From assembly GCF_002259605.1 (NCBI RefSeq), contig NZ_MWWR01000003.1, positions 124,001 to 188,000 of the forward strand: a stretch of 64,000 nucleotides of DNA, written 5' to 3'. This document shows, piece after piece, positions 13,832 through 17,416 of this stretch; within the stretch, counting starts at the first letter, position 1; each line of letters opens with the position of its first letter. The stretch comes from Pseudoscardovia radai. GTDB lineage: Bacteria; Actinomycetota; Actinomycetes; Actinomycetales; Bifidobacteriaceae. Under the pieces are notes generated by a model, which was given only the letters and a program-made list of their open reading frames with translations, was not told the DNA's origin and made no database searches. The position numbers were made by a program, and so were the translations under genes.

Positions 13832-13873
13832 TTGACGGCGGTCAATGTTTTCCCGGTGCGGCGCCCGTATCTT
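13832..13873 (+). promoter_or_regulatory. Fnr/Crp-type box and -10 of the metal ATPase operon
   Basis: TTGACGGCGGTCAA (13832-13845) matches the Fnr consensus TTGA-N6-TCAA and has perfect TTGAC/GTCAA half-sites. A -10-like TATCTT lies at 13868-13873. With a start near 13880 the box is centred at -41.5, the class II activator position. The Crp/Fnr gene at the end of this operon (16624-17322) is the obvious candidate to bind it. Confidence 0.6.
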
Positions 13874-13922
13874 GGGCACCATCAAGACATCGTGACAGAC
13901 ATCACGAAAGGAGGCCCCGCCC

Positions 13923-15815
13923 ATGCAGAGCTTCATCCTGCGTCACAAGCCGCAGCTCACCATCATCGGCGGCGCGCTTATCGCCGCCGGCCTGGTCGCG
14001 CGCTTCGCCCTGCACTCGCAGCCGGCCTACGCCGCGGCGTCTATCGCCGCCTCGGTCATCGGCGTGCTGCCGATCCTCATCCAGGCGGTGCAGGCACTGC
14101 GCGTCCGGGTCATATCCATCGACGTGCTCGTGAGCATCGCCGTGTTCGGCGCATTCCTTATCGGCAGCTGGGACGAATCCGCCATCGTCACGTTCCTCTT
14201 CCTCGTCGGCGGCCAGATCGAGCGCTATACGCTCAACCAGACGCGCTCGGCCATCGGCGCCCTCGCCGACATGGCGCCGCAATCCGCCGCGGTCCGCCGC
14301 ACCGACGGTACTTTCGAAACCGTTCCGGTCGACGATGTGCGCGTCGGCGACATCGTCAAGGTCGTCACCGGCGACCGCATCCCCGTCGATGGCGTGGTGA
14401 CATCGGGCGCCGGCCTCGTCAACGAATCCGCCATCACCGGCGAGCCCATCCCCGTTGACAAAGCCGAGGGCTCGAGCGCCTCCGCCGGCACCCTGCTCGA
14501 CGACGGCATGCTGACCATCCGCGCCGACACGGTGGGGGAGGACACCACCTTCGGCAAGATCATCGAGCTCGTCGAAAACGCGCAGGACTCCAAATCCAAA
14601 GAGGAACGCTTCATCGACCGCTTCGCCACGTACTACACGCCGGCGGTGCTCGTCATCGCCGTCATCGTGGGTCTGGTGACGCGCCGCGTCGACCTCGCCA
14701 TCACCATGCTCGTGCTCGGCTGCCCCGGCGCGCTCGTCATCGGCGTGCCCGTGTCGAATATGGCCGGCATCGGCAACGGCGCGCGCCACGGCGTGCTCAT
14801 CAAAGGCAGCGAGGTGACGCACCGCCTGAGCTCCGTCGGCACCTTCGTGTTTGACAAAACCGGCACGATCACGGTCGGCATGCCGCAGGTGACGGACGTG
14901 AGGCGCTACGACGATTCCATCGCCCTCGCCCCTGACGACGCTGCCGGGACATCCTCCGCCCCCGATGACGCCACGCGCTACCTCGTCGGCGTGGAGGCGC
15001 AGTCGCAGCACCCGCTGGCGAAGGCCATCGTGCGGCATTTCGACGATGTCCCCGCCCCACAGGTGGACGAGGTGTCGGTGGTGACGGGCGGCGGAATCCG
15101 CGCCGTGCACGACGGCCACCGGATCCTCGTCGGCAGCCCACGCTTCCTCGAAACGGAAGGCGTGGAGCTCGGCCCCACGGCCCACGCGGACGCGGCCGAG
15201 CTCGAATCGCACGGCGATTCGCTCGTGGCCGTGGCCCTCGACGGACGCATCCGCCTCATGCTCGGCGTGCGCGACCGCCTGCGCCCCGGCATCGCCGACG
15301 GCATCGGGAACCTGCGCCGCCTGGGCGCCAGGAACATCGTGGTGCTCTCGGGCGACAACCAGCGCGCCGTCGACCTCATGACGGCCGGCCTTGGCCTCGA
15401 CCGCGCGGTTGGCGGCATGCTGCCCGACCAGAAGGCCGCGTACATCTCGCGCCTGCGCGACGAAGGCCACCGCGTGGTGTTCGTCGGCGACGGCATCAAC
15501 GACAGCCCGTCCCTCGCGCTCGCGGACGTGGGCATCGCGATGGGCAACGGCACCGACGTGGCCATCGACACCTCCGACGTGGTGCTCGCGGACTCCGACT
15601 TCTCGCGTCTGCCGCACGCGTACGGCCTGGCGAAGCGTACGGTGCGCAACATGCGCGAGAACATCGCGATCGCGGTGGGAGCGGTGGCGCTGCTGCTCTC
15701 GGGCCTCGTGCTCACATCGTGGCTCACCATGGCCGTGGGCATGTTCGTCCACGAGGCGAGCGTGCTGGCGGTGATTCTCAACGGCATGCGCCTGCTGCGG
15801 TACCGCGTGAAATAA
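13923..15815 (+). CDS. P1B-type heavy-metal ATPase with CPG motif
   Basis: A membrane pump of 630 residues that would use ATP to export a transition metal. It has the actuator TGE loop (SAITGEP), the phosphorylated Asp in FDKTGTITVG (Asp311), the HP motif (SQHPLAKAIV) and the hinge GDGINDSPSLALADVGIAMG. The membrane metal motif is GCPGALVIGVP (Cys267): CPG instead of the CPC, CPH or SPC used to predict specificity. There is no N-terminal metal-binding domain; a stand-alone HMA protein is encoded 117 bases downstream. AAGGAGG precedes the ATG. It is the first gene of a four-gene group ending in a Crp/Fnr regulator. The transported ion is not predictable from sequence; copper, zinc, iron or manganese are all possible. 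Confidence 0.9.
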   Translation: MQSFILRHKPQLTIIGGALIAAGLVARFALHSQPAYAAASIAASVIGVLPILIQAVQALRVRVISIDVLVSIAVFGAFLIGSWDESAIVTFLFLVGGQIERYTLNQTRSAIGALADMAPQSAAVRRTDGTFETVPVDDVRVGDIVKVVTGDRIPVDGVVTSGAGLVNESAITGEPIPVDKAEGSSASAGTLLDDGMLTIRADTVGEDTTFGKIIELVENAQDSKSKEERFIDRFATYYTPAVLVIAVIVGLVTRRVDLAITMLVLGCPGALVIGVPVSNMAGIGNGARHGVLIKGSEVTHRLSSVGTFVFDKTGTITVGMPQVTDVRRYDDSIALAPDDAAGTSSAPDDATRYLVGVEAQSQHPLAKAIVRHFDDVPAPQVDEVSVVTGGGIRAVHDGHRILVGSPRFLETEGVELGPTAHADAAELESHGDSLVAVALDGRIRLMLGVRDRLRPGIADGIGNLRRLGARNIVVLSGDNQRAVDLMTAGLGLDRAVGGMLPDQKAAYISRLRDEGHRVVFVGDGINDSPSLALADVGIAMGNGTDVAIDTSDVVLADSDFSRLPHAYGLAKRTVRNMRENIAIAVGAVALLLSGLVLTSWLTMAVGMFVHEASVLAVILNGMRLLRYRVK

Positions 15816-15932
15816 GCGGCGTGTGGCGAAACTACACGATTGCCCCGCCGTTACAGACCGGGCGAATCGTGGAGCATTCCGCAACCGACCGACACCAGAT
15901 CTCGAAAAACACAACAAAGACAAGGAGAACCC

Positions 15933-16160
15933 ATGAAAACCGCAACCCTGAAACTCGACACCCTCACCTGCCCGTCCTGCATGCTCAAGATCGAGGCCGC
16001 CGCGCGCTCGGTGCCGGGCGTGGACAGCGACACGGTGCACGTCTCGTTCGCCAACAGCAAGGTGAAGTTCCGCTTCGACGACGCCCGCACCGATGCGCAG
16101 ACCGTGGCGAAGGCCATCGAAACCGTCGGATACCCGGTGCTCGGCACGAGCGTCGCGTGA
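15933..16160 (+). CDS. HMA-domain metallochaperone (CopZ-like)
   Basis: A 75-residue heavy-metal-associated domain, the ferredoxin-like fold of CopZ/Atx1. The metal-binding pair is Cys13 and Cys16 in LTCPSCMLKIE; the usual MxCxxC methionine is replaced by LTCPSC. The closing segment is AKAIETVGYPV. It probably delivers metal to, or gates, the upstream ATPase, which lacks its own HMA head. The ATG at 15933 has AAGGAG 7 bases upstream; the frame is open earlier but without a ribosome site. The upstream spacer contains one copy of the GGGCGAATCGTGGA motif. Confidence 0.88.
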   Translation: MKTATLKLDTLTCPSCMLKIEAAARSVPGVDSDTVHVSFANSKVKFRFDDARTDAQTVAKAIETVGYPVLGTSVA

Positions 16161-16243
16161 GGTGTGGAGCCTCGCTCCACGCAGCGAACCTGTAGTGCAA
16201 GCCACGCAACCCGCATAACCTACATATCCCGAAAGGACAGACC

Positions 16244-16588
16244 ATGACCGCATTCACCGACTACATCACTGCCAACCTCGACCGCCTCGACCTGGGCACC
16301 CTCGCCATCACGCGCGCGCACGCGGCGCATCACCCCGAGGTGTTCGAGGTGCGCAGGAACTATGAGACGATTCGCGACCGCGTGGCGGCGTCGCATGGGG
16401 CGCAGCCGCAGGTCGGCGAGGAGCTCGCGCAGATCAGCCGCCTGACCGGCGGGTACGCGATTCCGGACGACGCCTGCATGACGCTCGAAGGGACGTATCG
16501 CATGCTTCAGGAGGCGCATCGCCTGTATGAGGCGGAGGGAGGCACGGGCGCTGCGGGTACGAACGCCGACGCCGCTCGTGTACAGTAG
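16244..16588 (+). CDS. Conserved-looking small protein of unknown function in metal operon
   Basis: A 114-residue soluble, helical protein that I do not recognise. A His cluster near residues 25-31 (RAHAAHHPEVFEVRR) could bind metal or a di-iron centre, and a Gly/Ala-rich tail follows residue ~100. The ribosome site (GAAAGGACAG) and position between the chaperone and regulator genes make it a real gene. The 83-bp spacer before it holds a small hairpin (GTGGAGC-CTC-GCTCCAC, 16164-16180). Context suggests a role in metal or redox handling (inference only). Confidence 0.7.
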   Translation: MTAFTDYITANLDRLDLGTLAITRAHAAHHPEVFEVRRNYETIRDRVAASHGAQPQVGEELAQISRLTGGYAIPDDACMTLEGTYRMLQEAHRLYEAEGGTGAAGTNADAARVQ

Positions 16589-16623
16589 GGAATCCCGCGC
16601 ATCGGACCGGGGAAGGAGACGAT

Positions 16624-17322
16624 ATGCCGCATGACCTGTGCGTGCAGCTGGTGCCGTTGTTCGACGGCCTGGTCCTCGACGACCAGATGGAGATCCAGCG
16701 CAAGACGCGTTTCCGCATGTTCGGCAAAGGCGACATCGTCTTCTCCCCGGCGTCCGAACCGCAGCTGACCATCGTGGCGCGCGGCAGCATGAAGGTGTAC
16801 CGCATCTCGCCCAACGGGCGCGAGCAGCTGCTGCGTGTGGTCGAGCCCGGCGGGTATGAGGGCGAGGCGCGGCTTTTTGACAACGATGGCGCCGCGGCTG
16901 CAGACACGGCCGCGAACGCCGCGCCGGCGCATAATCTCTACGGCGAGGCGCTGGGCGACACCAAGGTGTGCATCCTGCGGCGCAGCGACTTCATGGAGCT
17001 GCTCGGCACGCATCCGCAGCTGAGCCTGCGCCTGCTGTCGGCGGTCGCCGGCAAGATGGCGCGCGCCGAGGAGCAGGCGCAGTTCCTCACGATGGGCCGC
17101 GTGGAGGAGCGCCTCGCGATGTATCTGCTCGACCTGTCGAAAGGCGCGGGCGGGTCGCCGCGCATCCGCATTCCGATGACCATGCGCGAGCTGGCATCGT
17201 ATCTGGGCACCACGCCCGAAACCCTCTCGCGCAAGCTTCGCTTCCTGGAGGAGGAAGGCTACATCGCCCGTCGCCGCCGCGACATCCTCATCCGCGACCC
17301 CGACCGCCTGGAAGACATCTGA
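16624..17322 (+). CDS. Crp/Fnr-family transcriptional regulator
   Basis: A 232-residue regulator with an N-terminal cyclic-nucleotide-binding-type beta-barrel (residues ~30-135, FGKGDIVFSPAS and MKVYRISPNGREQLLRVV), a dimer helix and a C-terminal winged helix (MTMRELASYLGTTPETLSRK, the recognition helix). The start CVQLVPLF resembles Fnr-like proteins, but only two or three cysteines are present and the four-Cys Fnr cluster pattern is missing, so an O2-sensing [4Fe-4S] cluster is unlikely. A glycine/alanine-rich insertion interrupts the barrel near 16890-16930. AAGGAG precedes the ATG, 35 bases after the previous stop. Probable autoregulator of this operon through the box at 13832. Confidence 0.9.
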   Translation: MPHDLCVQLVPLFDGLVLDDQMEIQRKTRFRMFGKGDIVFSPASEPQLTIVARGSMKVYRISPNGREQLLRVVEPGGYEGEARLFDNDGAAAADTAANAAPAHNLYGEALGDTKVCILRRSDFMELLGTHPQLSLRLLSAVAGKMARAEEQAQFLTMGRVEERLAMYLLDLSKGAGGSPRIRIPMTMRELASYLGTTPETLSRKLRFLEEEGYIARRRRDILIRDPDRLEDI

Positions 17323-17333
17323 TTCCCTCCGGG

Positions 17334-17416
17334 AACAATGTGATGGCTTGCGGACAAATTCCGTCTGTTTTTTACGGAAAATGCACGACTTATGTCCGCA
17401 AACCGTACCATCGTTT
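17334..17416. repeat. ~80-bp palindromic repeat, copy A
   Basis: The left arm (17334-17356, containing TGTGATGGCTTGCGGACA) is largely complementary to the right arm (from 17393, TGTCCGCAAACC). An inner hairpin TTCCGT/ACGGAA spans a T-run and may terminate the metal operon, whose last stop is 12 bases upstream. A second complete copy lies at 30557-30638, and half copies at 49755-49778 and 59941-59960. Confidence 0.8.

Follow-up and report, generated by a model that had tools for sequence, protein, structure and literature searches.

A metal ATPase operon of Pseudoscardovia radai probably activated by its own FLP-type Crp/Fnr regulator

The subject of this work is an operon in a stretch of 64,000 nucleotides (nt) of the Pseudoscardovia radai genome (Bifidobacteriaceae; contig NZ_MWWR01000003.1, positions 124,001 to 188,000), here called the window, in which genes for a P1B-type metal ATPase, an HMA metal chaperone, a small RIC/ScdA-like protein (gene 3) and a Crp/Fnr regulator follow an FNR/FLP-type box. 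The best-supported part of our reading, which we consider highly probable from the sequences compared, is that the operon is activated from position -41.5 by the product of its own last gene. For the operon as a whole the best explanation, to which we give about an even chance, is a self-regulated metal-relief module in which the FLP-type regulator acts as a thiol or metal switch and iron is the leading cargo. The features of the operon are the following.

13832..13845, plus strand: FNR/FLP-type box TTGACGGCGGTCAA (TTGA-CGGCGG-TCAA), centre 13838.5, predicted class II activator site
13868..13873, plus strand: -10 hexamer TATCTT, 22 nt 3' of the box; start predicted at about 13880
13923..15815, plus strand: P1B-type metal ATPase gene, 630 amino acids; N-terminal metal domain absent; CPG in M4 (C267-P268-G269), HEAS in M6 (H610-E611)
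15933..16160, plus strand: stand-alone HMA metal chaperone gene, 75 amino acids; CPSC (C13, C16)
16244..16588, plus strand: gene 3, small RIC/ScdA-like helical protein, 114 amino acids; H26, H29, H30 and C78 conserved; part of the RIC di-iron domain absent
16624..17322, plus strand: Crp/Fnr regulator gene of FLP type, last of the operon, 232 amino acids; two cysteines (C6, C116); recognition helix TTPETLSR
17350..17374, plus strand: terminator-like hairpin with a T run, 3' of the regulator gene

Results

The sequence-only reading had placed a perfect TTGA-N6-TCAA site 41.5 bases before the start implied by the TATCTT hexamer, and the coordinates of the two elements bear this out: with the start inferred 7 nt past the hexamer (13880), the box spans -48 to -35. 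No good -35 hexamer is found 16-18 nt from TATCTT, and because it is missing at the normal spacing a sigma-70 scan calls no promoter at the operon start; TATCTT without a -35 element has the appearance of an activator-dependent class II promoter. It should be noted that the bare number of boxes was dropped as evidence, there being one perfect box in the window against 0.26 expected from shuffling, and four in the whole genome against seven for a backward-pattern control. When the box, the 22 nt and a TANNNT hexamer are combined, the genome holds a single match, which is this operon, and the control none. No wider regulon was found in the P. radai genome, the remaining three perfect boxes lacking the hexamer at 22 nt and lying in surroundings that offer no clear place for a promoter. 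A second, internal promoter 5' of the window HMA gene was rejected as a candidate: the sole site over 15701-16640 that differs from the box at no more than two bases begins at 16244, where it overlaps the start of gene 3, and no hexamer follows it at 22 nt.

The case that box plus spacing occur above chance rests on the comparison across relatives. The regulator was detected at E 1.8e-32 or better in 21 of 189 Bifidobacteriaceae genomes, and two of the four genomes of its own genus carry it; in a Lactobacillaceae sample it was found at 1e-40 in 40 of 301 genomes, where 30 of the 41 matches were retrieved, one was the Lactobacillus delbrueckii locus L035 already in the set, and 10 were left out. 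Further regulator loci come from Enterococcus and Olsenella records. The 62 regulator loci analyzed include distant paralogues, and near-identical operons (e.g., L043, L044, L046, L047, and L048) were each counted. The regulator gene has the ATPase gene beside it in 49 of these loci, and an HMA gene in 52. Among the 47 operons in which the ATPase start lies within the fetched sequence, 42 have a perfect box at most 350 bases before the ATPase, with TANNNT exactly 22 nt further on in 40 of the 42, while any other spacing between box and hexamer in the range 12-32 occurs at most twice. Exceptions in spacing are L108 and L109, with a box before the ATPase and no hexamer at 22 nt, and L050 and L053, with TTGA-N6-TCAT at 22 nt; in L032, L046, and L125, where the start calls are shifted or broken, no perfect box lies within 350 bases of the called ATPase start. 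For the HMA genes (n = 52) a box is present within 250 bases upstream in 39, and the hexamer stands at 22 nt at 32 sites.

Because the ATPase and HMA loci are related, a further test was made in which loci were chosen without regard to the box: the gene-3 alignment was searched in 105 Enterococcus-family genomes, which gave 26 loci in 21 genomes (L178 and L186 being repeats of previously found loci). A perfect box lies no more than 300 bases away in 16 of the 26 homologues, and all 16 of these have the hexamer at 22 nt, a number which does not exceed 5 of 16 in 2000 shuffles; the remaining ten lie directly behind an HMA gene. Since ten of the 16 box-bearing homologues stand alone, with no pump, chaperone, Dps or regulator gene within the fetched stretch, the box marks a regulon and not merely a neighborhood. 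On pMP118 and on the plasmid of E. faecalis LJX 0909 a separate box at 22 nt precedes every one of the Dps, regulator, HMA, and ATPase genes, and across 22 operon-bearing genomes the refined pattern of box and 22 nt gives 69 matches vs 12 for the backward control.

Some other genes were found behind such boxes. In L. delbrueckii (genome G192) an IscA/HesB-like Fe-S gene (L174, 1158-1559, minus strand) follows a box with the 22-nt spacing and is a possible regulon member. A gene for a protein without Pfam family (L165, 1373-1948, minus strand; genome G269) has a box at 22 nt, and a similar gene (L035, 3053-3613) lies directly before the L. delbrueckii operon. Boxes seen in a single genome each, before an NADH-oxidase-like gene (at a distance of about 160 bases) and a radical-SAM activase-like gene (L173 and L176), may be due to chance.

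The window regulator matches Pfam HTH_Crp_2 (3.5e-23) and cNMP_binding (5e-12), and the fold in its AlphaFold model (mean pLDDT 81.6) is that of Crp/Fnr proteins. The four-cysteine cluster of FNR (oxygen, 4Fe-4S) is absent from this protein, which has two cysteines only, so that the earlier description of the last gene as a Crp/Fnr protein without this motif holds. Both C6 and C116, as well as E199, S202, and R203 of the recognition helix (E-xx-SR, the FNR type), are invariant in all 49 linked regulators. Exactly two cysteines are present in 46 of the 49, a histidine precedes the first cysteine by at most four residues in 42, and several relatives have histidine-rich N-termini. By contrast with the E-xx-SR helix, which reads TTGA, as is known from FNR, ten Crp paralogues from the family carry RETVNK helices and no or one cysteine. 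By C6, C116, and E-xx-SR the regulator fits the FLP/FlpA type, at least as judged from sequence; in the FLP of Lactobacillus casei DNA binding is reportedly governed by a reversible disulphide. It was also suggested earlier that the operon is run by its own regulator, and this is now strongly supported by the linkage, the FNR-type helix, the box at fixed distance, and the box-bearing genes away from the regulator. An alanine-rich low-complexity insert at 16885-16930 of the window (approximately residues 88-101 of the regulator) is absent from six aligned relatives, and the confidence of the model is low there.

The window ATPase was assigned to TIGR01525 (516.6 bits). In the 45 of 49 linked ATPases with at least 580 residues, to which the motif counts refer, every sequence has CPG in M4 and H-E-x-S in M6. 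When the window pump is aligned with sCoaT, a PIB-4 pump, C267 and G269 lie opposite S and C of the SPC of sCoaT, and HEAS opposite the HEGS of HEGST; the window protein thus has HE-x-S at the place equivalent to the HEGxT motif of PIB-4 pumps and does not have the final T. Overall similarity is nearly equal to ZntA (306.6 bits), CopA (304.5 bits), and sCoaT (290.5 bits), so that these scores do not single out a class for the pump.

Gene 3 matches no Pfam family. RIC models are matched by all seven aligned members, and the window protein scores 35.9 bits against the RIC/ScdA model, where the cut-off for a full-length match is 204.7. The gene-3 profile aligns with S. aureus ScdA in two collinear pieces, 90-146 and 169-208. 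Foldseek places RIC first with modest scores (E 0.036), and a VIA-align Z of 9.8 is tied with designed and other helical bundles. The product is best called a shortened RIC-like protein with a putative role in iron handling. All 49 ATPase-linked loci have a further gene of one of two kinds, RIC-like in 17 and Dps-like in 32, with no locus having both or neither, and the place of this gene in the gene order differs among the loci. The Dps-like protein of genome G130 matches L. lactis DpsA (PDB) at 4.7e-24.

Discussion

The operon, the box and its spacing, their conservation, the cysteines, the helix, and the RIC-like/Dps-like swap belong to the sequences themselves, and from them we infer activation, feedback, the thiol or metal switch, the cargo, and the direction of export. 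In the mechanism that we propose, a dimer of the FLP-type Crp/Fnr protein encoded by the last gene would bind the box at 13832-13845 and, centred at -41.5, would recruit RNA polymerase to the TATCTT promoter that lacks a -35 hexamer. This class II activation would switch on the ATPase, the chaperone, the RIC-like protein, and the regulator itself, giving positive feedback. The state of Cys6 and Cys116 would most likely set the activity of the regulator, with a disulphide or a bound metal locking the DNA-binding form, and we hold it somewhat better than an even bet that such a thiol or metal switch operates. The ATPase would export metal out of the cytosol, the HMA protein would shuttle it, and the RIC-like protein (in most relatives the Dps-like ferritin) would handle iron, the predicted net effect being a lowering of free metal, most likely Fe(II), during oxidative or metal stress. 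Iron as the cargo is an evenly balanced call. Among the observations in favour are the M6 motif HE-A-S as compared with the HEGST of PIB-4 pumps, a class which includes Fe(II) exporters (PMC7012047), and the IscA/HesB-like Fe-S gene of L. delbrueckii with its predicted promoter of box and 22 nt. The PIB-4 motifs and a role of PmtA in Fe(II) have been described (PMC8880997, PMC7012047).

Several points weigh against this reading. Since the loci are related, the counts given above are of non-independent events, and the window operon is without the further box found 5' of the HMA gene in most relatives. The gene-3 protein may hold no di-iron site, because it aligns to ScdA in two pieces only and the stretch between them is absent. 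The PIB-4 signature SPC is likewise absent, all 45 ATPases having CPG instead, and work on FlpA and FlpB of L. lactis is said to have pointed to zinc. In addition, the CxxC of the HMA chaperone and the CPG cysteine in M4 of the pump fit soft metals (Cu, Zn, Cd) better than Fe. The same self-activating circuit could thus serve a soft-metal cargo (Zn, Cu, Cd), with the two cysteines and the nearby histidine binding metal directly, so that the regulator would be a metal sensor of Crp/Fnr fold and the Dps or RIC-like protein would answer secondary oxidative damage. The frequent histidine close to the first cysteine and the histidine-rich N-termini of several relatives are in line with this, as is the listing of FlpA among the metal homeostasis regulons of Lactobacillales (PMC3616900). 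We regard a soft-metal cargo as possible, if on the low side, as the M6 motif appears to be of the PIB-4 kind and unlike that of ZntA or CopA, and as the partner genes come from iron-protein families.

What the regulator senses bears on a further part of the sequence-only reading, in which the signal could be a metal or thiol state and not oxygen. The two invariant FLP-type cysteines, the histidine usually nearby, the missing four-cysteine cluster, and the metal-handling targets support that proposal only indirectly. Were the regulator to sense oxygen or nitric oxide (NO), for example through a labile cluster on its two cysteines, the operon would be an oxygen or NO response and the movement of metal incidental to it. 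The fold with its FNR-type helix would suit such a sensor, RIC proteins as a family are generally known to restore Fe-S centres damaged by NO or oxidative stress, and the single-genome boxes before NADH-oxidase-like and radical-SAM activase-like genes would agree with it. FlpS and FlpA, which are studied relatives, have been discussed as oxygen-responsive, and two cysteines are common in the FNR-like proteins of Gram-positives, whose control by a cluster is disputed (PMC5039431). An in vitro switch of FlpA is cited in PMC3547956. Nevertheless, with only two cysteines in place of the four-cysteine motif, and with the metal pump and the chaperone as the constant members of the module, a sensor of oxygen or NO is unlikely. 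Repression is the other mode of action that has to be weighed, given that a box spanning -48 to -35 overlies the -35 region, where a bound repressor could block polymerase. A repressor, however, has no need of a fixed distance, and the 22 nt are kept to the base in 40 of 42 and 16 of 16 cases; nor would it account for the lack of a good -35 hexamer 16-18 nt from TATCTT; we consider repression very improbable.

The operon can be compared with several systems already known. FLP of L. casei and FlpA/FlpB of L. lactis share with the window regulator two cysteines and an FNR-like fold and helix, a likeness of features and not one drawn from their sequences, and in lactic acid bacteria the FlpA regulon is grouped with those of metal homeostasis (PMC3616900). 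Unlike these systems, the window operon is found in Bifidobacteriaceae and has a RIC-like gene. Since FlpA-run metal regulons have already been described in lactic acid bacteria, the window operon represents a known kind of system, the FLP-run metal module, in a bifidobacterial variant. Modules on L. lactis pGdh442, L. salivarius pMP118, and the E. faecalis plasmid (ATPase, HMA, Dps, and Crp/Fnr) have the same four functions, with the RIC-like protein here in the place of Dps, and the same box and 22-nt spacing; they differ in the Dps-like protein and, on two of the three plasmids, in having a box for each gene, whereas the window has one at the first gene only. The PIB-4 ATPases sCoaT, PfeT, FrvA, and PmtA are also without an N-terminal metal domain and align at HE-x-S with HEGST, but carry SPC in M4 where the pumps of this operon family have CPG. 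The iron-centre repair proteins RIC, ScdA, and YtfE are the best matches of gene 3 by sequence and, at modest scores, by fold, yet gene 3 is much shorter, the middle between the two aligned pieces and the C-terminal end being absent. PerR-controlled Fe(II) efflux (PfeT, PmtA) with Dps/Dpr follows a similar logic of iron export and sequestration in oxidative stress, the controller there being a repressor of the Fur family and here a predicted Crp/Fnr activator.

A literature search turned up neither a paper about the operon in bifidobacteria nor one that names a CPG P1B class, but subscription papers on FLP, FlpA, and P1B classes were mostly beyond its reach, and absence from print is not claimed. 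Of particular interest are how rigidly the spacing is kept from family to family, the exchange of the RIC-like for a Dps-like gene, and the CPG/HExS motifs of the pump; the pump motif and the gene exchange suggest a function in iron handling that database names do not reveal. With one promoter, defined cysteines, and defined metal-handling targets, the conserved module also makes the question of what FLP-type proteins sense directly testable. In its most far-reaching form, which we find doubtful, the proposal would be of a mobile self-activating iron-relief cassette, in which an FLP dithiol or Cys-His metal switch takes in bifidobacteria and lactic acid bacteria the role that PerR has elsewhere, an undescribed CPG/HExS class of P1B pump exports Fe(II) alongside either a Dps ferritin or a cut-down RIC protein, the latter being a new iron-handling family, and the rigid -41.5 promoter design stays intact across phyla.

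Conjugative and mobilizable plasmids carry the module between bacteria of gut and food. FLP-like regulators were found on 452 plasmid records (1e-20), and regulators of the window family occur on named Lactococcus plasmids. The operons of B. pseudolongum (L031, 3593-6973) and L. delbrueckii (L035, 3595-6973) are 96.5% identical in DNA over 3382 bases, promoter included, while their flanks cannot be aligned, indicating a recent transfer between phyla. A record titled Faecalicatena absiana (L032) has an operon that shares 96% identity with the B. pseudolongum one and whose first-gene promoter is displaced from the ATPase; the label or assembly of the record may be questionable. Two departures from the usual arrangement were also seen: in genome G269 the pump-HMA-Dps operon and the regulator gene lie on separate contigs (L164 and L095), each with boxes at 22 nt, and genome G595 (L188, L199, L202, and L203) carries tandem repeats of HMA and gene-3 copies 5' of a Dps-like gene.

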